A stretch of 33,787 nt of DNA from Candidatus Iainarchaeum sp. (GTDB taxonomy: Archaea; Iainarchaeota; Iainarchaeia; Iainarchaeales; DTGL01). Position numbers and translations under genes: made by a program. The DNA lies in the NCBI GenBank assembly GCA_026396995.1, contig JAPLVS010000075.1, positions 1 to 33,787 of the forward strand, given 5' to 3'. Under the pieces are notes generated by a model. It was given only the letters and a program-made list of their open reading frames with translations, did no database searches and had not been told where the DNA came from. Positions 12,472-33,787 of this stretch are shown here, in pieces. Each line of letters opens with the position of its first letter. Position 1 is the first letter of the stretch.

Positions 12472-15400
12472 CTACCCCGTGTTCCTGAAAAAGCCGACCG
12501 GATTCCATGTGAAATCCGTTCCGTTTTCTATGGAATTTGCGCAGGTTTTTTCTGATTCAACGCCTTCAATTATTTCACTGAGTGTCGGCAGGCTTGTTTG
12601 CTTGGGGGCAAGCGTGTTTTTTTCGCACAGGTCTGTGCCGGTATACTTCATGGTGCTTTTCATGAAGGCGCAGTCTTCGGATTTGAAGCCGTTTTCAACA
12701 GAATCCATATAGGCATAGAGTTCGCCGATGTTGCCTGTGGCGCAATGCATTGCCAGTTCTGTGCCAGGCGGCAGGAACGCAATCGTTGACAGCAGCGGAA
12801 CCTCTGTTTCGCCGCCTGCCGGGAGCACATAAGGGGAGATGTCGGCAGACTGCCTTATTTTTTCCATTGGAATTTCAAGTTCTGCCACCACAATCTTGTC
12901 ATAGGTGCCGTTGTTTCCGCAGGCAGGAAGCTGTTCGGAGACAGTGTCTTTCGATATTCCGCCCTGGAAATCGAAGAAAGTGAAAATGCTTTTTTTCGCC
13001 CCGTATTCTTCAAGTGAAAGCCTTGCCTCCTCCTTGGTTTTTGAAAGCAGGTAATAAATCTTGCCTGTGCTGCCAAGGCCGGTTTCTTCTGTCATGGATT
13101 CAGGTGCAGCGAAAAACCTGACCCTTACAGGAATGGAATGCTTCACTGTAATGCCATACTCCGCCCCTTTTTTTGAAACCTTGAGTATCGAGCCTTCCCT
13201 TATGTCGTCAATCGCTTCCGAGTAAGAGAATTTTACTTTGGCGATGTTTCCCGAGTCCTTGCCTGTGCTTGGGGCAACCCTGTTTTTTTCCTGGTTATAT
13301 ACTCCAAAAGGCGTGTAACTGTTGATTTCCGGTATTTCATCCGTAAAATAAAGCATTGTATCCGCGTAATCCTGGAACTCGATGCTTGCCCCGTAGCCCT
13401 GCCTGCCGTTCTCAAGGCCTATTTCGCCGTCAAAGGGAATGAAAAGGAAAGGGTTGGAATGGTCGGAAAGCGCTTCCCTTAACCCAAGGGAATGGCTTGC
13501 ACTGCTTATCTTGATGTTGTCGATATTGCTTGAATCGAATATGAAATCGGATTTCAAGAGATACCGGCCTGTGCCGAACTGATTGCCGGCATTTTGCACG
13601 GAAACAGCCCAGGAATCCGGATTGACTCCAGCCTCTTCAAGCTGGCCTGAAAAGAATTCCTTGAAGTCTTTTTTGAAGTCTTTGCTCAGCGCATCCGAAA
13701 CCAGTTTTACGTCTGCAGTGCCGATGCCTGTTTTAGCCCAATTCCAGCCTCTTTTATAAATTGAATTTTTTTCCACGAATTCCATTTCCTCAGGCGCGAG
13801 TTTATTCAACGGAGAAAGCCCGAATTGCAGGAAAGAATGCTTTTCAAGGAAATCGAAGAAGCCTTGTATTTCGGATTTTGAAAACCTGATGGGGGTTGCG
13901 CCGGCAATCTCGAGATAACAGAGCCCGGCGGCAAAATCGCATTCCCTTTTTATCTGCGTTGCAATCTGGCGCTGCTGTTCCAGGAAAAGGGAAAGGGAAA
14001 CGAATTTTGCGCCCTCATTGTAGGGCATGGCAGGATCCCTGTTTTCAAGGTAAAAATCCGGCGGCAGGCCCAGCGATGCGTTTAATGCGTCAAGCCTTTC
14101 GGCCAAAGCCCCTTTCTTGTCCCTCCATTCTGCGAACCTTGCGCTTTTGCTGTCGCAGGGAATCGAATAATCGATGTAAAGGTCGGCAAGCCCGTATTGC
14201 TGGCCAAAGCAGTTCCTGGCAGAACTTTCAAGCGCCGAAAGCTCAGGGCTTGCGCCTGGATTTGAAAGTTCCCCGATGGATTCTCCGGCCAATGCTTTCA
14301 CCTTGGCCTCTTCCACAAACTCAGCCCAATCTTTATCAAGAGTGCATTCCGGATTATTGAATGCCGGATTGTTCCTCAAAGGCTTTTCGCCTGAAAACTC
14401 GATGCAGTTCTGCCAGTCGCCTGCAGCCTTGGCCCGCACTTCATCGGAAAATGTAGGTTCGCCGTATTCGTCCAGCGAGGAATATTGTTCCCTGCGCCAG
14501 TTCACCCAGCCTGCTTTTTCTGTCGCATAGAAAACCTGTGCTTCGTTTTCATTTTCTGTCGGCAGCACCAAAAAGCCCTGCCTTGAAAGGTCGAGCAGCA
14601 CCTGCCCTTTCGGTTTTTCGGCGCCTGAAATGTTTTCCGAAAAGAACTGTTTTTCCGAAGGCGTCATTCCGTTCAATGCCCTCACTGCAAGCGGCTGCGT
14701 TTCAGCAAAGAAAATGTAGAGCTGGGCTGCATCGCAGTATTTTTCAAGGCAGTCCACTGTCCTTTCAGCGCCATCCCTTTCCTTGAGATTCATCGCCCAA
14801 AGCCAGTTCCTTTTTTCCTTGAATCCGGCCGCATCTTCGCCTGTCTTTTCGCATTTGAGGTTCAGGCCGCTGCCCTGAAGGTCAGGCTTGTTGTAATAGA
14901 ACGGCATATAGTCGACGCTTTTGCCGCCTTGCTTATTGTACACTGTCAGTTTGAGCATTTGCATGCCCTCGTTTCCGCCGAGCCATTTGTAAGGCCTGAA
15001 ATCAGCTGAAAGCACTCCGGTTGAAGGCGTCTCTGATTCTATTGCCAGCTGCCATTGGACCGTGCTGTCATCCGCAAGCATGAACTGCTGTGCGGCGTAA
15101 TGGTAATCCATCGAACTATCCACGGCCTCCGAATGCGTCAAAAGCGCCAAAAACGCACCGAAAAGCCCGGGTGACAGTTCTGCAAGTGACGGAACATTTT
15201 TGAGGGCCTGGCTTAAAAGCGTGGATGCCGGGTCGGTTGCAAAGTTCCAGCCTGCCTTGACCGCCTTGCCTGCCGAAACAAGCGGAATTGTGAATCTGCC
15301 AACCGTGACTTCATCCCCGAGTATGATGGCAGCCAAGTCCAGCGAATACGCAATGGTCCTTCCAGTGGTGAAATAGCTTTGGGGGGTGAGATACTCGTAT

Positions 15401-17244
15401 GCGCCCTCAGGCCCGCTTGCTGTGCCAAACACGCGCATCTGGCCGACCTCGACAGTGTATTTTTTGAAATCCCTGCCGAAGGCAAGCCCTTTCAGCTCAT
15501 ATGATTCTGTTCCCATTTCATTGTCCTTTACGCCGAGCGGTTCCAGCATTGCCACAGGCGGCGTATCAGTTGCTGAAAGCGTTTCGATTACATTGATAAG
15601 GCCGAACCCCTGGCTTGTCATCGGCATCTGCATGTCTTCCGCGGAATTCCTTATCGCCATTTTTATCTCGAGAGGCGACCAGTCAGGGTGCGCTTCCTTG
15701 ACCATTGCCGCGAGGCCTGAAACATATGCGGCTGCAACCGAAGTGCCGCTTACCGAACCATAACCTTCAACCTGGCAATCCCCTGCAGCCGAAAAAGCGC
15801 CGCCTGCCCGGCCGCAAGCCATTCCGTTCAACTGGTCTGTCTGCGCAGCGCACTCAGCAGAACCAGGCGCAATGACATCGGGTTTCATGAGCAGGCCCGC
15901 ATCCCACGAGGTTATGCCTATGCCTGAGCCAGGCATCAAAAGGAAATGCCCTGCCCCTGCGCTTTGCGACGAGAATTTTTTCGGGTCAAAGCCGCCGTAA
16001 GCGCCGACAGTTATTGCCTTCCTTGCAGTGCCAGGCGAGCTAACCGAATTCGGGATTCCATTCGCCGCATCAGTGGCCTCGCTGTTCCCTGCGGAAACAA
16101 CCACAACAGAGCCTGCCTCGACTGCGCTGTCCACTGCTTTTGCCAGCGGGTCGTCGGCGCTTGTGCTTTCCGCATTGTTCATGCTTATGTTTATCACGTC
16201 GGCGCCGCCTGAAAGCAAGCATTCATTTTGGCTGCCTTCGCATGATGCCTTCGGGTCGACTGCCCTTTTAAGCGCTTCAATCGCATCGCTTTCAAACGAC
16301 ATTCCGGAATAAGGCGAATCGCCTGCGCACTGCATGATGCTGAGAGGGATTATTTCGGCGTCGGGCGCAACGCCCCAAGGCTCGTTTTCCTGCTGCATAT
16401 TGTCGTTGTTCGGGTCATATTTTCCAGCGGCAATGCTTGCAATCGCCGTCCCATGGCCTGACAGGTCAGCAGGCGCACCGGTTGAGGAAGGGAAGCTCAT
16501 GATGCCTGCGGCTGAAGGACAGTTTTCCGAACCTGCAGCCAATGCCTCCGAGCGCGCGCAATCCCCAAGCCCGGTCGTGATTTTTTTGCATTCCCCGCTC
16601 TCAAACCCAAGGATTGTGCAGCCACCGAAAGCCGGATGGGTGAAATCGATGCCTGTGTCGATGAAAGCGATTTTCACGCCGCGCCCTGTGGCACTGCCGA
16701 GCGGAAGATTCCTGTAATCCGACAGCCCTATCTCTGCGAAGCTCTGCCAGTTCGGGTAACGGTAATCCATACTTGCGCTGATTTCGCTGTTCTTGGTGAC
16801 GGATTTAATTCCAGGCATTTTGGCAACGCGCGCAGCCTGCCCGTCAGAAATATCCATTGCCGCACCGTTAAATAAAAGCGAGAATTCTGAAATGACAGCC
16901 GACCCGCACTGTGTTTCATCCAATTCCAGGCCTGAGCAGACCATTTCAATGCCTTCCTGCCTTGCAATTCCTTCAATGCCATTTTGCGCTGCAAGGCTGA
17001 ATCCTGTCGTTTCAATTGCAGTATTGGCAAGCGAATCCGAAAGCGAACCGAAAACTGACCCACTGCCGAATGAACGGCTCTGGCTTTCAAACCACGAAAC
17101 AGAACTCCCTATCTCCAGATTCAATTTAGGGGTGCTGCCGCTTTCCTTGAATTCAATAATCCATCCCTTTTGCGCTGCAAAAGCCGGTGAAAAAACCAAT
17201 AAGCAGAACAGTGCGAAGAAAAACAATTTCTTCATTTCCCGCAC
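12472..17244 (-). CDS. Large secreted subtilisin-like serine protease (S8 family)
   Basis: Signal peptide MKKLFFFALFCLLVFSPAFAA; catalytic motifs IAFIDTGIDFTHP (Asp), GHGTAIASIAAG (His), GTSVAAAYVSGLAAMV (Ser); 1590 aa. Confidence 0.95.
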   Translation of the reverse strand: MREMKKLFFFALFCLLVFSPAFAAQKGWIIEFKESGSTPKLNLEIGSSVSWFESQSRSFGSGSVFGSLSDSLANTAIETTGFSLAAQNGIEGIARQEGIEMVCSGLELDETQCGSAVISEFSLLFNGAAMDISDGQAARVAKMPGIKSVTKNSEISASMDYRYPNWQSFAEIGLSDYRNLPLGSATGRGVKIAFIDTGIDFTHPAFGGCTILGFESGECKKITTGLGDCARSEALAAGSENCPSAAGIMSFPSSTGAPADLSGHGTAIASIAAGKYDPNNDNMQQENEPWGVAPDAEIIPLSIMQCAGDSPYSGMSFESDAIEALKRAVDPKASCEGSQNECLLSGGADVINISMNNAESTSADDPLAKAVDSAVEAGSVVVVSAGNSEATDAANGIPNSVSSPGTARKAITVGAYGGFDPKKFSSQSAGAGHFLLMPGSGIGITSWDAGLLMKPDVIAPGSAECAAQTDQLNGMACGRAGGAFSAAGDCQVEGYGSVSGTSVAAAYVSGLAAMVKEAHPDWSPLEIKMAIRNSAEDMQMPMTSQGFGLINVIETLSATDTPPVAMLEPLGVKDNEMGTESYELKGLAFGRDFKKYTVEVGQMRVFGTASGPEGAYEYLTPQSYFTTGRTIAYSLDLAAIILGDEVTVGRFTIPLVSAGKAVKAGWNFATDPASTLLSQALKNVPSLAELSPGLFGAFLALLTHSEAVDSSMDYHYAAQQFMLADDSTVQWQLAIESETPSTGVLSADFRPYKWLGGNEGMQMLKLTVYNKQGGKSVDYMPFYYNKPDLQGSGLNLKCEKTGEDAAGFKEKRNWLWAMNLKERDGAERTVDCLEKYCDAAQLYIFFAETQPLAVRALNGMTPSEKQFFSENISGAEKPKGQVLLDLSRQGFLVLPTENENEAQVFYATEKAGWVNWRREQYSSLDEYGEPTFSDEVRAKAAGDWQNCIEFSGEKPLRNNPAFNNPECTLDKDWAEFVEEAKVKALAGESIGELSNPGASPELSALESSARNCFGQQYGLADLYIDYSIPCDSKSARFAEWRDKKGALAERLDALNASLGLPPDFYLENRDPAMPYNEGAKFVSLSLFLEQQRQIATQIKRECDFAAGLCYLEIAGATPIRFSKSEIQGFFDFLEKHSFLQFGLSPLNKLAPEEMEFVEKNSIYKRGWNWAKTGIGTADVKLVSDALSKDFKKDFKEFFSGQLEEAGVNPDSWAVSVQNAGNQFGTGRYLLKSDFIFDSSNIDNIKISSASHSLGLREALSDHSNPFLFIPFDGEIGLENGRQGYGASIEFQDYADTMLYFTDEIPEINSYTPFGVYNQEKNRVAPSTGKDSGNIAKVKFSYSEAIDDIREGSILKVSKKGAEYGITVKHSIPVRVRFFAAPESMTEETGLGSTGKIYYLLSKTKEEARLSLEEYGAKKSIFTFFDFQGGISKDTVSEQLPACGNNGTYDKIVVAELEIPMEKIRQSADISPYVLPAGGETEVPLLSTIAFLPPGTELAMHCATGNIGELYAYMDSVENGFKSEDCAFMKSTMKYTGTDLCEKNTLAPKQTSLPTLSEIIEGVESEKTCANSIENGTDFTWNPVGFFRNTG

Positions 17245-17989: not shown

Positions 17990-20263
17990 TCATCCCGAAT
18001 AGAAGCTCTCAATCCATTTAGGCTTTTCAGGTTCCTTGCCGCTTGCCAGCATTTCCTTCCATTTTTCGTCTGTAAGCCTGTCATTCATGGGCCACTTGAA
18101 TTCATGGTAAGAGAATACCGGCCCTGCGCCTAGCAGAATCCTTCCGTCAGGCACCTTGTACGCTACAACCATTGTCCTCAGGTATCCGGTGCCTTCCTCG
18201 AGAACCTTTCCCTCGGGAGTGCAGGTATGGACGTCTGCGATGATTGTTGTTTCCTTGCCCTTCTCCAGCTCTTCGTCGTAATCCAATCCTGCAACAGCCC
18301 ACTCGAGGCTGGCACCGAAGGATTTGATGAAAGCATAGTCTTCCTTGCCCAATTCTTTGTTCTCAAGCTCCTGCTTTGAGAGGTCGAGCACTCTTTTGAG
18401 GATTTCGCTGAGACTTTCTATCCTTTCTTGCGCTTTTTCGCTCAAAACGCCCCTTTCCTTCAGTCCCTTCAATGTCATTTCGTTCAATGCAAGCAGGCGC
18501 GCATAGAATTCAGGCACAGGCTCGACATAGCCCACAGCCTCCTTTTCAACCGGCATTGCGGTTTCAACCATTGTATAACTTTGCTTTGCGTAAAGGATTG
18601 TGTCGTGCCTTAACTGCGCCCAAGAGCCCAGCGCTGCATTCAACTGCTTGTCTTTCCATGTTGTTCCCTGCATAAAGGTAGGATATCCTTCCCCGTAATC
18701 CCCCAAAAGCGCTTTGATGGAATAGAGCCAGCTCCAGTAAAGGTTTTGGTTCCAGCCATTTTCGCCAATTGCATTGAATTCCGCCTTCAGCTTGTTTACC
18801 CTGTCGTTATAGGTTTCATCCACTTCCTTGTAGTCGGCATCGCCTTCCGCTTCAATTATTTCAAGCTCCCTGTCCGAGCCGAAAACCGCCATAACGTCAA
18901 GCCCGCGCGGATAGCCGCGGATATCGCGAATGCCTGAAAATGCTTTTGTGAACGGGTTTCCCTGCCCTGTGTAGCCCATGTTTACAAGCCTCTGGAACAT
19001 GTAAGAATCCGGGATGAACCTTTGGCCCATTAAGCGCATGCCTTTTGTATCTTCAAGCACTTCGTTGAGCTTTTCATTGGTTACTGGCGGTGCAACTTCA
19101 ATGTTGCCTGTCCCTCCATAGATGAGCGGGGAGCGCATCTTTGCAAGTTCTGCCTTGACTTCCAGGAGCTTGCCCTCGTCTGCGAGCTCTGCGGCTCCGG
19201 CTCCGCCGCCGAACACGGTTACTATTGCATCCATGTATTCGTACGGAGTCAAATCGTCTGCAAGGCCGACATAAAAGGCTGTAACGTCGTACATTCTGTC
19301 CCAGATATCGCTGGCTTTCCTGCCTTCAACCGAAACGCCTTGCAGCGAGCCGGCTATAAGCAGCGCCTCCATTGTCTGTATTTTTGCATCATATTCTGAA
19401 ACAATGCACTCCGGAGAATCACAGCCTTTCAAAAGGAAGCTCATTCTCCCGTACCACATCAGCGCCTTGAAGTATTTTTTCAGGTTTTCCGAGCGCGTGT
19501 AATGGCCTCTCGGAAGGTATTGGGAATAATCCTCCTGGTAAACGAAAATCTGGCTTTTCGCAAAGCCCTCGTGCTTTTCAATCAGTTCGATTTCTTTATC
19601 AACATCCGCCTGCACGTAGGACGGGATTTCAGCTGTAGGGTTCAAGAGCTTCAGGCCCACAGAAAAGAATGCTGCATTCCTTTTGGCCGCCTCCTTAAGG
19701 TCCCCCTCCGATGAATCGTATTTTTTCATCGAGTCGGCAAGCATCGCCCTGCTCAGCAGGGTAATGTCATTAAAGAATTCTTTTTCCTCGATTTCCTTCA
19801 GGGTTTCGTCGAATTGTATGTGGTACAAGTGCAGGAGCGAATCAGAGGTAACGAACACCGGCACTTCTTTGCCCTCAAGCCCCTTATAGAAAGCGACAAC
19901 GTCGTCGGTTTTCCCGCTGTCAAAAACCATGAACCCGTTTTTCTCGAGAAGGCTTGGATCTGAAAAGCCGAGCTTTTCCTTTACTGCGGAATAATTCTCT
20001 ATCTTGCTTGTGTCAAGCGGAAGCGTGTATTGCTCTATCTGCGGGCTTGCCGAGGAATCCTCGGCCGCATATTCCGCTGCAAACGAGCCTTTTTTCAGGC
20101 TGACTGTCTGCACCGGTGTGGCCGTAGGCTGTGGCGTTGGCTGTGCTGGCGAAACAGCGGGAGTTGGTGTCGGGCTTGGCCCGGGCCCTGGCTGCGAGCA
20201 GCCTACAAGCAAAATCCCGAAAACAGCCACTAAAGAGAGTATTCCGAAAACAGCCTTCTTCAA
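17990..20263 (-). CDS. DUF3160-like secreted lipoprotein
   Basis: Lipobox LLVGC; short PT linker; PVFVTSDSLLHLYHIQFDETLKEIE and overall length resemble DUF3160 proteins (family recalled, not searched). Confidence 0.8.
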   Translation of the reverse strand: MKKAVFGILSLVAVFGILLVGCSQPGPGPSPTPTPAVSPAQPTPQPTATPVQTVSLKKGSFAAEYAAEDSSASPQIEQYTLPLDTSKIENYSAVKEKLGFSDPSLLEKNGFMVFDSGKTDDVVAFYKGLEGKEVPVFVTSDSLLHLYHIQFDETLKEIEEKEFFNDITLLSRAMLADSMKKYDSSEGDLKEAAKRNAAFFSVGLKLLNPTAEIPSYVQADVDKEIELIEKHEGFAKSQIFVYQEDYSQYLPRGHYTRSENLKKYFKALMWYGRMSFLLKGCDSPECIVSEYDAKIQTMEALLIAGSLQGVSVEGRKASDIWDRMYDVTAFYVGLADDLTPYEYMDAIVTVFGGGAGAAELADEGKLLEVKAELAKMRSPLIYGGTGNIEVAPPVTNEKLNEVLEDTKGMRLMGQRFIPDSYMFQRLVNMGYTGQGNPFTKAFSGIRDIRGYPRGLDVMAVFGSDRELEIIEAEGDADYKEVDETYNDRVNKLKAEFNAIGENGWNQNLYWSWLYSIKALLGDYGEGYPTFMQGTTWKDKQLNAALGSWAQLRHDTILYAKQSYTMVETAMPVEKEAVGYVEPVPEFYARLLALNEMTLKGLKERGVLSEKAQERIESLSEILKRVLDLSKQELENKELGKEDYAFIKSFGASLEWAVAGLDYDEELEKGKETTIIADVHTCTPEGKVLEEGTGYLRTMVVAYKVPDGRILLGAGPVFSYHEFKWPMNDRLTDEKWKEMLASGKEPEKPKWIESFYSG

Positions 20264-28468: not shown

Positions 28469-28705
28469 ATGGACGAGTTGAAATTGTTAAATGATTTTGA
28501 AAAGAGTGGTTTTTGGGCTGGAACTGCCCAGCATGAACTACAAAAACAATATCCAAATGAATATGTTGCTATAAAAGATTGCCATGTTATAGCACATGAC
28601 AAAAGCTCAAAAAACGTAATTGATCTACTTGAGAAAAGGAGTGAAGATCTTACGTTGGTCTTGATACAATTTGTTCCTGAAAAGGGTTTGCAGATTTTAT
28701 ACTGA
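28469..28705 (+). CDS. Small protein, DUF5678-like
   Basis: 78 aa; YPNEYVAIKDCHVIAHDKSSKNVIDLLE resembles the DUF5678 pattern (family recalled, not searched); 8 bp upstream of the protease ORF. Confidence 0.7.
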   Translation: MDELKLLNDFEKSGFWAGTAQHELQKQYPNEYVAIKDCHVIAHDKSSKNVIDLLEKRSEDLTLVLIQFVPEKGLQILY

Positions 28706-28713
28706 GGGGAAAT

Positions 28714-29151
28714 ATGAAAATTCCTCTTTTGCTTTCCCCCAAAAAAAACGTATTAGAAGCATATTGCAATATCAGATTTTCACCAAAAAATATTCCGTTG
28801 CCGATAAGATTTATAGTGGATACTGGGAGCTCAGAAACATTTATTGATGAAATTGATGTCATGAGATACCGAGTGTTTACAAAAACTTTTCCCGTTAGTA
28901 ATTCTATATTAATAGGGGGAAATAAAATAAGTCTCCACAAAATTGGCAAGACAGTTATGGCTTTTAAAAATGACAGCGGTGCGATGGAACAGATAGAATT
29001 TAATGATTTAAAAATTGCCGAAAGTGCTCGGTCAAGACAAGGAACAATGAATGCTGGAGCGTCTATTTTGGGAATGAATTTTCTAAATGAAAGCGCACTG
29101 CATCTCTTTTTAGACCCAACAAATAATGTGGCGTACTTTGGCAAAAACTAA
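28714..29151 (+). CDS. Retropepsin-like (clan AA) aspartyl protease
   Basis: FIVDTGSSETFID active-site DTGS motif; ASILGMNFLNESALHLFLD matches the C-terminal ILGxxFL motif. Confidence 0.85.
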   Translation: MKIPLLLSPKKNVLEAYCNIRFSPKNIPLPIRFIVDTGSSETFIDEIDVMRYRVFTKTFPVSNSILIGGNKISLHKIGKTVMAFKNDSGAMEQIEFNDLKIAESARSRQGTMNAGASILGMNFLNESALHLFLDPTNNVAYFGKN

Positions 29152-29296: not shown

Positions 29297-29412
29297 CGAG
29301 GAACCTTAGTCTTTGAGGTTTCTTGGTGTGAACCTAAGTGACGAATGCCTTTTCTAAGCCCGATGAAAGGCGTTTTTTCCTTTTTATAACATTATTGACG
29401 CATTACGTTAAT

Positions 29413-30648
29413 ATGGCTGAATGGACCGCAGAAGAACTTGCTTTTTTGAAAAAAAATTACGAAATAATGCCCAAGAAAGATTTGGTTGAACAACTACACC
29501 GCCATCCGCTTGGCTGCATATACCGAAAAGCCCAGCAATTAGGTTTGAAAAAAAGTCTGCACAGGTGGAGCCAAGACGAAGAAAATTATCTTGTGAAAAA
29601 CTATGCAATTGCATCAAAAGTTGCATTGCTTGCCAACCTAAAACACTATTCTTGGACAGCCATAGTATGCAAAGCATGTTCATTGGGGCTCAACAGAATG
29701 AATTTGTGGACGCCAAGCGAACTGCAAATACTCAAAGAAGTTTACCCCAATTCATCCAAAGAAGAAATAATGAAAGCGCTCCCCGGTAGGGCATGGTGGT
29801 GCATTGGGCCGAAAGCACTGGAATTGAAACTGAAAAGAAAAAACCCTAACTGGTTTCGGCGAATCAAACTAAAAGATGGCTATCAAAACCTGACAACTGA
29901 ATTGGCACAGTTTTTGGGCAACTTGAGCGGAGACGGCCATGTAGGGCGTAACATAATAGAGTATGCGTGCATTTTCCCAGATTCAAGTCAGCACTTTATT
30001 GACATTGTGGAAAAACAATTTGGATTAAAAGGCAGGCGTTATGATGGACACATAATTGTTTTCTCCCGTGAATTGGTGGATTTCTGCAACAAACTATGGC
30101 ATGGAAAAGCAGGCCATAGGGTTGTAAGAGTTCCAGAAATAATCAAAAACACAGGCAAGGAATACAAGGCAGAATTTATCAAATACCTGTTTGGCGATGA
30201 CGGAACTTGCTTTTTGGACAAGTGGACCATTAAAGTTGAATTAAGTTCCACTTCAACAACCCTTCTCCGAGACGTGCAGAAAATGCTAATCGAGGATTTT
30301 GGAATTGAATCAAAAATAAACAAAGGCGGCAAGAGAACCAAGGAATCCCATGCGCAAGCATACCATCTTTTTGTCAGAAAAATATATTCGGTAAAAAAAT
30401 TTTGTGAACAAATCGGGTTCTCCCCTTTTGCGCGTTGTGAAGGCGGCAGAAACAAAGGCAAATTCAAACAACAGGTTTTGCAAGAGGCTGTCAATAAAAA
30501 ATTTAACCGAAAGTGTATTGACTGCGGAGCCGACATTTCCAATTGCAGAAGCAAGTCGGTTAGATGTGAAAAATGCAGAAAAAAAATCGACAGCCGGAAC
30601 TACAAGGCGAGACTTAAAGCAAGGAAAATAGCCCAAGGAAAAGACTAA
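29413..30648 (+). CDS. LAGLIDADG homing endonuclease with Myb/SANT-like N-terminal repeats and C-terminal zinc-finger-like motif
   Basis: LAQFLGNLSGDGHV and FIKYLFGDDGTCFL as paired LAGLIDADG motifs; W(T/S)xxE...L..NY repeats at the N-terminus; CIDCGADISNCRSKSVRCEKC at the C-terminus. Confidence 0.85.
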   Translation: MAEWTAEELAFLKKNYEIMPKKDLVEQLHRHPLGCIYRKAQQLGLKKSLHRWSQDEENYLVKNYAIASKVALLANLKHYSWTAIVCKACSLGLNRMNLWTPSELQILKEVYPNSSKEEIMKALPGRAWWCIGPKALELKLKRKNPNWFRRIKLKDGYQNLTTELAQFLGNLSGDGHVGRNIIEYACIFPDSSQHFIDIVEKQFGLKGRRYDGHIIVFSRELVDFCNKLWHGKAGHRVVRVPEIIKNTGKEYKAEFIKYLFGDDGTCFLDKWTIKVELSSTSTTLLRDVQKMLIEDFGIESKINKGGKRTKESHAQAYHLFVRKIYSVKKFCEQIGFSPFARCEGGRNKGKFKQQVLQEAVNKKFNRKCIDCGADISNCRSKSVRCEKCRKKIDSRNYKARLKARKIAQGKD

Positions 30649-30719: not shown

Positions 30720-30858
30720 CTAACCTTTTTTGATATCTTAGTGGCAGTTTTGTTTGGCAGGGGATGGTGAGTGGAGAACAATGGTTTTTAACCTTTCACC
30801 GGAAGTCTACTCTCTATGGCTTTAAATAGGTTTTATTCTTATTTCTAGATTGATTGAA

Positions 30859-31050
30859 ATGTTGTCCAAGAGAGTGCCTTATCCGAAGGATTTGATGGAT
30901 ATTGTCACAGGGCTTGTTTTTTCCGGGGCAGGAAAAGAAGAGATATTTAACCAGTTAACAAAAGACCAACAACTCAAGGAATATTACTGCATCAAGGATG
31001 AGCAGATACTGAGCGCAATTGAGGATTCATTCTTTATTTTTGACAAGTAA
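30859..31050 (+). CDS. Small hypothetical protein
   Basis: 64-aa ORF from MLSKRVPYPKDLMDIVTG; converges on the DUF2075 gene. Confidence 0.5.
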   Translation: MLSKRVPYPKDLMDIVTGLVFSGAGKEEIFNQLTKDQQLKEYYCIKDEQILSAIEDSFFIFDK

Positions 31051-31053
31051 AGG

Positions 31054-32925
31054 TTAACTCTCAATTCTTGAACGGAAAAAGTTTTCTGTGTCTTTGTCCA
31101 AGAAGTAAACGTAAACGCCTTGCATGCCTCTGCTGAGGAGAACGCGATAGGTTTTTTTCACAAGTTCGGTAAACTGTCCTTTGGCGCGTTTTACTGTTGC
31201 GTCTGCTAAACTTTCTGGGTGGCCGACCCAATCTTTGGTTGTTGGGTTGTAAATTAAGTCTTTTCCGAAAATAACGCCGACATATTCAAATTCAAATCCT
31301 TGTATGGTATAAATGCTTCCTACTTGATTGACTCCATTTGGATCTACCGCCCAGTGCTTGGCTAACGGAATTCCTGGCGCCAGCCTTTTGGCCTCGTTTT
31401 TGGCTTCCCAGGTCATTTGGAAATCTCCGATTACCACGTCTTTTTTTAGTGTTCCGTCTGGGTTTGAATCGCTCCAAGGCCAACAAAATCCAGCTACTAG
31501 TCTGGCTGAATTTGGCTTTTCAGCGTTTTTTTGCTTGATTGCTTCATAGAGCGCATGCGGGCTGTCAAAAATCTTGAATTCCATTTTTTCGTTTTTAGTC
31601 AGTGTTCTGTTGGCGGTGTCTTTAACTCCTAGCGTGTTATCAAGCCAATTTAGGTAGCCGTCTGAACCGCTGCAGCGAAACTGTGTCTTAAGTTCAAAAT
31701 CGAAGAGTTCGGCATTGAATTTTTTGGCAGTTTCTCTTATCAAGTTTGAACTTCCTATTTCGTTTGGGCGTACTCCCTGAAAGTCGTCAATAAAAAATAT
31801 GGAAACTTTGGCGATACGAATCAGTTCTTCTACCTGTGGAACATCAGAGCGGAATTCTTTCTTTGTAAAACGGCTATTGCTGGTTTCCCTTATTCTGTGT
31901 GCTTCATCGCAAATCAAAACATCGAGTTCGTTTTCTTTTACGTTAGAGAAACTATTGAAATATTTGAATAGTTTTGCTGCTCTAGGGCCAACAATCTTGC
32001 GCAATGACCCAGTGAAAGCTGCAGAGCCGGTGGCATGAAAGACGGTTTTTCCCTTTGAAAGCAATTCTGCCAATACGTTTAGCGCAATGACTGATTTTCC
32101 CGTGCCTGGGCCGCCTTGCACAATGATAACAGATTTGTGCTTTAACTGAGAGCACTTTTTGGCTCTGTCTAGGATAGTGTTATTGGCGGTAATCTGTTCA
32201 TCAATCAAGCTGAATGCCTTTTGGCCGGCAATCATGTTGCTGGCGTGTTCCATTAATTTTTTAGATGGTTTGATGTTGCTCGTGGCAAAACGGTTAAGGA
32301 TTTCCATTCCTTGGCCTTTTTCTAGCTTTGACCGCAATAGTTTGCCAAGGTTCTCGAAATCGTCTTTTGTGAAAACTGGGAACTCTTTCAGAAGACTTTC
32401 AAACTTTGGTAAAAACAAAATGGAGTTTGGAGATTTAGGGTAATTATGGCAGTAAACACAGGAAAACAGGTCTTCGCGAGGTTCTTCATTGAAAACTGCA
32501 ATAAAATCCTTTAGTAAATAGTGATAGCCTCCTACTTGTTGTGAAGGGTGCGGAACCATGCGCTTCGCATAGCCGAGGAAAGTGACCACATTGCCTTCAA
32601 TCTCGCAGTCTTCCACTTGGGACCATTGTTTTAATTCTATGACTATCGCATTATCCGAATCTTTATTGTCTTTCCCGAAAAGGATGCAGTCTATCCTTTC
32701 ATTGGTGTAAGGGAGTTCATACTCTAGTATGATGCCGTTTTCAAGCAATTTTTGCCTTTCTAGAAGATTTTTGATAAATTGCAGTGAATTAGTCCAAGAA
32801 CCTAGCTCTGATGGCGAAACTCTGTGTCCATAATAGTCTTCATATGCTTTGGCCAGTTTGTCGGCAATTTGGTTTTGGACGGCATCGTCGATGAATTGCT
32901 GTGTTGTGCCTTCATATAAGCGCAT
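31054..32925 (-). CDS. DUF2075/Schlafen group 3-like helicase with N-terminal PD-(D/E)XK-like nuclease region
   Basis: Walker A GGPGTGKSV; Walker B VLICDEAHR; QFRCSGSDGYLNWLD and TYRVLLSRGMQGVYVYFLD; N-terminal RIDCILFG...AIVIELKQW fits D...ExK. Confidence 0.88.
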   Translation of the reverse strand: MRLYEGTTQQFIDDAVQNQIADKLAKAYEDYYGHRVSPSELGSWTNSLQFIKNLLERQKLLENGIILEYELPYTNERIDCILFGKDNKDSDNAIVIELKQWSQVEDCEIEGNVVTFLGYAKRMVPHPSQQVGGYHYLLKDFIAVFNEEPREDLFSCVYCHNYPKSPNSILFLPKFESLLKEFPVFTKDDFENLGKLLRSKLEKGQGMEILNRFATSNIKPSKKLMEHASNMIAGQKAFSLIDEQITANNTILDRAKKCSQLKHKSVIIVQGGPGTGKSVIALNVLAELLSKGKTVFHATGSAAFTGSLRKIVGPRAAKLFKYFNSFSNVKENELDVLICDEAHRIRETSNSRFTKKEFRSDVPQVEELIRIAKVSIFFIDDFQGVRPNEIGSSNLIRETAKKFNAELFDFELKTQFRCSGSDGYLNWLDNTLGVKDTANRTLTKNEKMEFKIFDSPHALYEAIKQKNAEKPNSARLVAGFCWPWSDSNPDGTLKKDVVIGDFQMTWEAKNEAKRLAPGIPLAKHWAVDPNGVNQVGSIYTIQGFEFEYVGVIFGKDLIYNPTTKDWVGHPESLADATVKRAKGQFTELVKKTYRVLLSRGMQGVYVYFLDKDTENFFRSRIES

Positions 32926-32927
32926 GG

Positions 32928-33278
32928 TTAGAGCTCCGAGTATTTTTTATTAGACCCCTTGGCTTTTTCAATCGGGTATTTTTTGGCATTGTGCTCTAGT
33001 TTTTCCAGAATGGCTTTTTCTGGGTCTATTCCGGTTTCTTCAGCCATATCCAAGCAGTAAAGCATTATGTCTGCCAGCTCGTGCTTTAGGGCTTCAAGCT
33101 TTTTCGGGTCTTTCAGCATTTCTTTGATTTCTTCGTTTGTTTTCCATTGAAACAGTTCTGCCAGTTCGCCGGCTTCAATATTGATAGAAAGAGCCAAATC
33201 CTTTGGATTGTGAAAGCGCTTCCAATCGCGGTCATCCCTGAATTGGATTGCTTTCTTTTGCAATTCTTTTAAGTCCAT
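32928..33278 (-). CDS. MazG-like nucleotide pyrophosphohydrolase
   Basis: SINIEAGELAELFQW (EExxE-like) and ELADIMLYCLDMAEETGID (ExxD-like) metal-binding motifs; likely start MDLKELQKKA; 2-bp gap to the helicase start. Confidence 0.88.
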   Translation of the reverse strand: MDLKELQKKAIQFRDDRDWKRFHNPKDLALSINIEAGELAELFQWKTNEEIKEMLKDPKKLEALKHELADIMLYCLDMAEETGIDPEKAILEKLEHNAKKYPIEKAKGSNKKYSEL

Positions 33279-33363
33279 GAAGGCTATTGATAGTGATAAG
33301 ACTTTTATTAATAGCGCGAATAGGCAGATTGCCAGTTTTGGCACTGATTGCTATTAAATTGAA

Positions 33364-33765
33364 TTATTCGATTTTATCGTGTTTTTTTAAATTGTGTTTC
33401 GCGCAAAGTATTTGAATATTTTCTGTTTTTAGTGAAGTGCCACCTTTTGAAAACGGTAACACATGGTCAAAGTGAAGGTTGGTGGTGCTCCCGCACTTTA
33501 CACATCGCCCTTTGTCTCTTTTCCATACTTCGAGTTTTACGTTGGAAGGGATAAGGCGAGTGTGGTCTAAATGAGTAATCTCCTCTATTTCTGGCTCTTT
33601 TTCATCGATAAGTTCTAATCTAAATTTGAAGACTTTTCTTGCATTGCTTTCTTCTTGCCATGCGTCGATTAGTTTGAATAATCCGTTATATACCCAAATG
33701 CCTGATTTAATTTTTTCATACACGCGAACTAATTCTGGGGTTTCATCGTTTTGTTTATGCTTCAT
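33364..33765 (-). CDS. HNH endonuclease
   Basis: C-terminal KRDKGRCVKCGSTTNLHFDHVLPFSKGGTSLKTENIQILCAKHNLKK, typical HNH with two zinc CxxC/CxxH pairs. Confidence 0.88.
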   Translation of the reverse strand: MKHKQNDETPELVRVYEKIKSGIWVYNGLFKLIDAWQEESNARKVFKFRLELIDEKEPEIEEITHLDHTRLIPSNVKLEVWKRDKGRCVKCGSTTNLHFDHVLPFSKGGTSLKTENIQILCAKHNLKKHDKIE

Positions 33766-33787
33766 AGCTGCATTGAAAAATAAGCCA

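Follow-up and report, generated by a model that had tools for sequence, protein, structure and literature searches.

Three genes on one strand at the end of an archaeal contig, encoding an HNH protein, a MazG-like pyrophosphohydrolase and a nuclease fused to a helicase, raise the question of whether they act together as a defence system and, if so, what such a system would do. The window analysed here is the complete contig JAPLVS010000075.1 of Candidatus Iainarchaeum sp. (33,787 bases), from a draft genome of 1.35 Mb that is 93% complete. A candidate defence cassette had been proposed for this region by a reading made from the letters alone (the sequence-only reading), and the three genes on which it was based were confirmed on the minus strand, with the HNH ORF at 33364-33765, the MazG-like ORF at 32928-33344 and the helicase at 31054-32925. 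The GC content falls from about 0.50 to about 0.35-0.42 at ~28.0 kb and remains low to the contig end, and GC3 is 0.29-0.48 in the genes from ~28.0 kb on versus 0.48-0.58 in the main genes before. Because of this drop and the lower GC3, the contig end from ~28 kb is probably acquired DNA, forming an island that continues past the contig end.

The three genes at the contig end

Upstream, the HNH frame continues without a stop codon up to the final base of the contig, so that the gene is truncated and the Met at 33765 is internal. The visible portion (33364..33786, minus strand; 140 codons in frame) is the 3' end of what is probably an SRA-HNH endonuclease gene, cut by the contig end. The HNH domain, at about 33370-33504, is intact and was matched above the cut-offs by Pfam PF01844 (1.9e-7) and HNH_5 (8e-7). 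The first ~60 residues match positions 87-146 of the 148 in SAD_SRA with an E value of 3e-4, which is below the curated cut-off, as expected for a partial match, and a PF02182 search of the same genome placed this C-terminal part of the SRA domain at about 33604-33774. The same N-terminal part also matches the SRA domains of SUVH9 and, weakly, those of SUVH6 and SUVH5. The SRA assignment stands on these about 60 residues, the rest of the gene lying beyond the contig end. Profile searches recovered the HNH and MazG-like domains and Schlafen group 3 (PF09848), and added the partial SRA match. The HNH ORF that had been placed just upstream of the pair is present, not as a small solo nuclease gene; that identity was ruled out, since the reading frame extends past the contig end and probably includes the end of an SRA domain.

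The domain order makes it most likely that the HNH ORF belongs to a modification-dependent, type IV-like SRA-HNH endonuclease of the TagI/ScoA3IV kind. In the known SRA-HNH endonucleases (TagI, ScoA3IV/Sco5333 and TbiR51I; PMC6212794) an SRA domain is followed by an HNH domain in one polypeptide, the order that the window gene probably has, and the HNH residues (FDH...ENIQ...KHN) and the CxxC zinc-type cysteines are intact in the window. Unlike the TagI-type genes, the window gene shows the last part of the putative SRA domain only, the contig ending there, and it adjoins a MazG-helicase pair, a context unmentioned in the TagI paper (PMC6212794). A PF02182 search found no other SRA domain in 87 genomes of the phylum, and searches for a fuller SRA-HNH protein in the phylum and in the genomes of the relatives returned nothing beyond the copy in the window and similarities confined to the HNH part. 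No C5-cytosine methyltransferase (PF00145) was found in the 93%-complete genome itself by a search that was positive in 10 of 14 control genomes, which fits the requirement of an enzyme that cuts 5-methylcytosine DNA. Alignment-free structure prediction for the HNH fragment gave a pLDDT of 36 and was of no use.

Between the HNH stop and the MazG ATG lie 85 nt (33279..33363, minus strand; read directly from the sequence). This interval holds an AT-rich ATTAATAAAA box ~30 nt ahead of the MazG ATG and a short palindrome, TGCCAAAACTGGCA, which together are a possible promoter/operator belonging to the MazG-helicase pair itself. The HNH gene has a GC3 of 0.35, unlike the MazG gene (0.47) and the helicase gene (0.43), and for this reason it may have had a separate origin.

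The MazG-like gene (32928..33278, minus strand) encodes a 116-residue protein of the all-alpha NTP pyrophosphohydrolase type, resembling dCTPP1/RS21-C6 (Pfam MazG-like, 1e-20). The most likely start is the ATG at 33278 (MDLKELQ...) rather than the GTG at 33344, because the former matches the start of the homologue in G061, a genome of the same phylum. In a PDB search the closest solved proteins were dCTP pyrophosphatase 1/RS21-C6 (E = 1e-23 over 25-138). The EXXE/EXXD metal site is intact, with E57, E60, E89 and D92 (138-residue ORF numbering) invariant among close relatives. The alignment with dCTPP1/RS21-C6 extends over the full length and retains, besides this site, the equivalents of W47 and W73 and the C-terminal KYxxL tail, whereas the positions of human H38 and N55 are occupied by A and D; the window protein also differs from dCTPP1 in being coupled to a nuclease-helicase gene. 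DCTPP1 hydrolyses dCTP and is an enzyme of nucleotide-pool homeostasis (PMC7162842). It also acts on 5-modified dCTP (PMC7162842, PMC4491611), 5-methyl-dCTP being covered by PMC4491611, and by analogy the archaeal protein may hydrolyse dCTP and 5-modified dCTP as DCTPP1 does.

The third gene (31054..32925, minus strand; PF09848) encodes a 623-residue protein in which a PD-(D/E)XK-like nuclease domain (~1-210) is fused to a Schlafen group 3 SF1 helicase (264-610), hereafter SLFN. PF09848 is matched from end to end (1-354 of 354, E = 3e-90). The motifs GGPGTGKS, DEAH and RVLLSRGMQG were all found, in line with the Walker A and B motifs and the RVLLSRGMQG motif of the sequence-only reading; the match includes motif VI, and the motif residues are invariant in 15 sequences. 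Across the N-terminal 210 residues of the same 15 sequences E68, D79, E97, K99, Q100, H126, Q130, Y134, H160 and N161 are invariant. An AlphaFold model built from six sequences had an overall pLDDT of 57, only the N-terminal part being good (~80). In this part the order of elements is helix-strand-strand-strand-helix-strand, with D79 and E97/K99 placed, at modest confidence, on adjacent strands, where PD-(D/E)XK nucleases also have them. The D/E/K motif and the modelled secondary structure support assignment of the N-terminal domain as a PD-(D/E)XK-like nuclease, and the putative nuclease region of the sequence-only reading holds at that level (E68, D79, E97-x-K99 and Q100).

Taken alone, the PD-(D/E)XK-like domain had no match in the fold library. 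A fold search with the whole model gave human SLFN11 as the best match (E = 2.6e-4), a hit that lends weak support, the model being modest. The PF09848 helicase is common to human SLFN11 and SLFN14 and the window protein; unlike in the human proteins, the N-terminal domain in the window is PD-(D/E)XK-like and not a Schlafen RNase core. PADLOC returned no full-length system match for the helicase and no match for MazG. The PDC-S41 model matched the helicase partially (75.6 bits) in two stretches, the better aligning 3-289 of 623 with 5-260 of 657, and Nhi (53.8 bits) and AbiO (49.7 bits) matched over the ATPase core alone. Membership of AbiO or Nhi was ruled out, the best stretch being ATPase core residues 236-418.

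Coupling, distribution and neighbourhoods of the pair

The MazG stop and the SLFN ATG lie 2 nt apart, the spacing that had been read from the sequence. This junction (CGGAGCTCTAACCATG; 32923..32939, minus strand) carries a Shine-Dalgarno-like GGAG in the last MazG codons. A GGAG or GAG in the MazG end, a stop and the SLFN start all fall within a few nucleotides at loci L004, L006, L007, L106, L111, L112, L113 and others. By its sequence the junction has the classical layout of translational coupling, which accounts for the 2-bp gap.

SLFN was found in 31 of 938 archaeal genomes, comprising 2/87 in the phylum of the window and 11/394, 7/301 and 11/156 in three further sets. In 22 of the 31 (2/2, 5/11, 6/7 and 9/11, respectively) MazG is its same-strand neighbour within about 150 bp. 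In the phylum of 156 genomes MazG is present in 16 at E <= 1e-20, and both genes occur in nine genomes versus 1.1 expected (p about 5e-9, a guide only, as it ignores the relatedness of same-phylum genomes). Among plasmid records 25 hold MazG of this type, 41 hold SLFN and 11 hold both, always separated by no more than about 10 kb, against an expectation of 0.014 that ignores relatedness and plasmid length. Chance is therefore very unlikely to have placed the MazG and helicase genes side by side. About a third of the SLFN copies have no MazG; at L003 (Methanocellaceae) a decayed MazG remnant sits where MazG would be. Broken copies were also seen at L010 and L055, with SLFN in pieces (Marivirga and Nocardiopsis eucommiae) and MazG broken in N. 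eucommiae, and from these three loci the cassette appears to decay often.

The pair occurs in Microcystis phage Mwe-JY31 as well, and in phage records as a whole at 4 of 50,697. Searches of viral contigs with the SLFN proteins of the window, Priestia and the phage, with the HNH protein and with the SRA-like fragment of L007 found no relatives, and a scan with A3 gave at least three relatives, all weak. The patchy distribution and the GC drop from 28 kb on indicate a mobile cassette. MazG-SLFN is a conserved, translationally coupled two-gene cassette of archaea, bacteria and one phage.

The HNH gene behaves differently. No HNH of the type seen in the window or in bacteria was found at any of the 24 further archaeal loci, and G061 carries MazG-SLFN without HNH. 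The conserved co-occurrence that the sequence-only reading called for therefore exists for the pair, whereas a conserved three-gene cassette in archaea was ruled out. Since HNH is absent from those 24 loci, MazG-SLFN is taken as the constant unit and HNH as a non-constant partner.

In bacteria, HNH genes recur beside one or both members of the pair. A Priestia plasmid has the order MrcB_N-HNH, MazG, SLFN, N-6 DNA methylase/S subunit. An HNH protein with a different N-terminal domain, here X-HNH, precedes MazG and SLFN in N. eucommiae, follows MazG with a 4-nt overlap in N. flavescens, where SLFN is 4 kb away, and follows MazG in Streptomyces NBC_01724 and in Peribacillus, there next to two cytosine methyltransferases. 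In Streptomyces albidoflavus the genes divergent from SLFN are X-HNH and a short MazG-like ORF, and on a Streptomyces albus plasmid X-HNH has neither MazG nor SLFN nearby. Ligilactobacillus shows S subunit/methylase, SLFN and MazG in that order. In X-HNH the HNH part resembles the solved structure 6yex (PDB), 'HNH endonuclease', which we take to be the EVE-HNH enzyme VcaM4I. The N-terminal reader of X-HNH looks PUA/EVE-like by eye, the match to a solved structure being limited to the HNH part. The HNH part of the Priestia protein matches 6ghc, 5-methylcytosine-specific restriction enzyme A (McrA), and the Priestia and Peribacillus HNH proteins match PADLOC type IV models. EVE-HNH (VcaM4I; PMC7897488) and McrA-type HNH enzymes resemble the HNH parts of these bacterial proteins, not the HNH of the window, and blastp found no similarity between the window HNH and the X-HNH or Priestia HNH proteins. 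Reader-HNH genes with unlike N-terminal domains beside MazG and/or SLFN are independent parallels to the triad in the window.

Other partners were seen among archaea. In the phylum of G088 a PD-(D/E)XK protein of the PDDEXK_1 or DUF2779/Cas4 kind adjoins MazG-SLFN at L004, L115, L116, L119 and L118 and is possibly the equivalent accessory there. At L007 a frameshifted fragment begins about 20-40 bp behind SLFN; it has no Pfam SAD_SRA match, and by eye it resembles the beginning of an SRA-HNH gene, one that would continue into the SRA end in the window. In one genome a PemK/MazF-like toxin gene lies directly ahead of MazG-SLFN (L110, 8329-8691, minus strand).

The wider neighbourhoods are mixed, so that the expected placement near known defence genes holds for part of the set only. 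Restriction-modification genes surround the pair at L015 and L058, and mostly known defence genes are the neighbours at L015, L058, L061 and in G022, not at most archaeal copies. In G022 a solo MazG of this type (L047, G022:C1:18000-34000) is surrounded by several genes that, on reading the sequences, are of the methylase-type restriction, DUF262-like and SIR2-like kinds. Many archaeal copies have housekeeping surroundings, read as proteasome/exosome-type at L117, ftsZ-like at L107 and IscU/SufS-like at L111, and solo MazG relatives can also adjoin housekeeping genes.

Directly behind the helicase gene in the window is a convergent 66-residue ORF (30850..31050, plus strand). It has no Pfam match; tblastn located a counterpart in G061 (L046, 9995-10159, minus strand) with 62% identity and with place and orientation conserved. 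It may belong to the archaeal cassette as a small third gene, or it may be a neighbour that both copies share through their insertion site.

Proposed function and alternatives

Our preferred reading, held tentatively at a probability of about 0.4, is a mobile two-gene MazG-SLFN core with an exchangeable nuclease, here SRA-HNH, that would act against invaders in the style of type IV restriction. The SRA domain would recognise 5-modified cytosine on DNA entering the cell, with the HNH domain cutting nearby, as the SRA-HNH family suggests. The helicase-nuclease could then load on ends or stalled DNA and unwind or degrade it, and MazG would hydrolyse dCTP, and probably 5-modified dCTP too, to the monophosphate. 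Modified nucleotides released from the invader or made by it would in this way be kept out of host DNA, sparing the host from being targeted itself, and the invader would be left short of precursor. An anti-invader role is favoured because of the restriction-type partner, the restriction genes next to some copies, the signs of mobility in the distribution and the fusion of nuclease and helicase. The probable SRA-HNH partner strengthens the defence reading first proposed for the locus; the three-gene form in which it was proposed is not generally conserved. A narrower version, which we regard as doubtful, has MazG destroy exactly the modified nucleotide that is read by the partner reader-HNH (5-methyl- or 5-hydroxymethyl-dCTP for SRA), with the specificities matched and swapped together across bacteria and archaea; incorporation of that nucleotide would then make host DNA a target of the reader-HNH.

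The pair could instead be a self-contained two-gene defence or abortive system, with SRA-HNH an independent type IV restriction gene that landed adjacent by chance. The 24 further archaeal loci and the G061 copy fit such an arrangement, as do the 85-nt gap with its possible promoter and the differing GC3. The recurrence of reader-HNH genes with unlike N-terminal domains next to one or both members of the pair, seen in Priestia, two Nocardiopsis, Streptomyces and Peribacillus, argues against it, as does the SRA-HNH-like fragment downstream at L007, and we consider it somewhat unlikely. Patchy presence (31/938 archaeal genomes), restriction-gene contexts and carriage by plasmids and phage likewise speak against a mobile, non-defence cassette for DNA maintenance, in which MazG would clean the nucleotide pool and the nuclease-helicase would repair or process damaged or stalled DNA. 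This role is unlikely, yet retains some weight because of the housekeeping neighbours of many archaeal copies (L107, L111 and L117); it would also agree with the part played by dCTPP1 in nucleotide-pool homeostasis (PMC7162842) and with the housekeeping genes beside solo MazG relatives.

Nucleotide depletion, which the sequence-only reading had paired with nucleic-acid cleavage, becomes one option only, the closest solved relatives of MazG being dCTP pyrophosphatases that also act on 5-modified dCTP. Depletion would require MazG to consume canonical dNTPs on infection in an abortive response, like dCTP deaminase and dGTPase systems, with cleavage of nucleic acid left to the nucleases. Hydrolysis of dCTP by dCTPP1 (PMC7162842) is compatible with this, as is the listing of MazG as a predicted, unvalidated defence domain (PMC13092281). 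The protein is small and has no sensor or activation domain, a constitutive dCTPase would need restraint, and the evidence does not separate depletion from pool cleaning; this explanation appears improbable. Presence in phage Mwe-JY31 and on plasmids could also reflect a selfish or phage-side function, with the pair aiding mobile elements through control of the nucleotide pool and a replication or counter-defence helicase. The rarity in phage records, the weak viral-contig matches and the cellular location of most copies found make this a very remote prospect.

All parts of the locus belong to known families, and the coupled cassette of a dCTPP1-like MazG and a nuclease-Schlafen-helicase looks undescribed. 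No paper describing the MazG-SLFN pair was found in a literature search that covered mostly papers outside subscription, so that a prior description may exist. It has the look of a module for antiviral defence or DNA quality control that has not been described before. It is a small, testable candidate for explaining why MazG enzymes appear among predicted but unvalidated defence genes (PMC13092281), and it would tie control of the nucleotide pool to restriction of the modification-dependent kind in archaea. Within that domain, DPANN lineages are reported to have fewer restriction and CRISPR systems than expected (PMC12988326), and the host of the window is probably DPANN, judging by its small genome and closest relatives.

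Other genes of the contig

A repeat search within the low-GC island gave nothing notable. The island also contains, at 29338-30648 (plus strand), a gene for a 436-residue LAGLIDADG_3 protein whose N-terminal part has repeated segments of DNA-binding appearance; the protein is probably a homing endonuclease of the free-standing type. At 28469-29151 (plus strand; GC 0.34) a DUF5678 protein and a retropepsin-like aspartyl protease are encoded 8 bp apart and look like a two-gene unit. Two genes elsewhere on the contig are large for a small archaeal genome, namely those for a 757-residue DUF3160 protein (17990-20263, minus strand; E = 4e-210) and a 1590-residue subtilase (12472-17244, minus strand).
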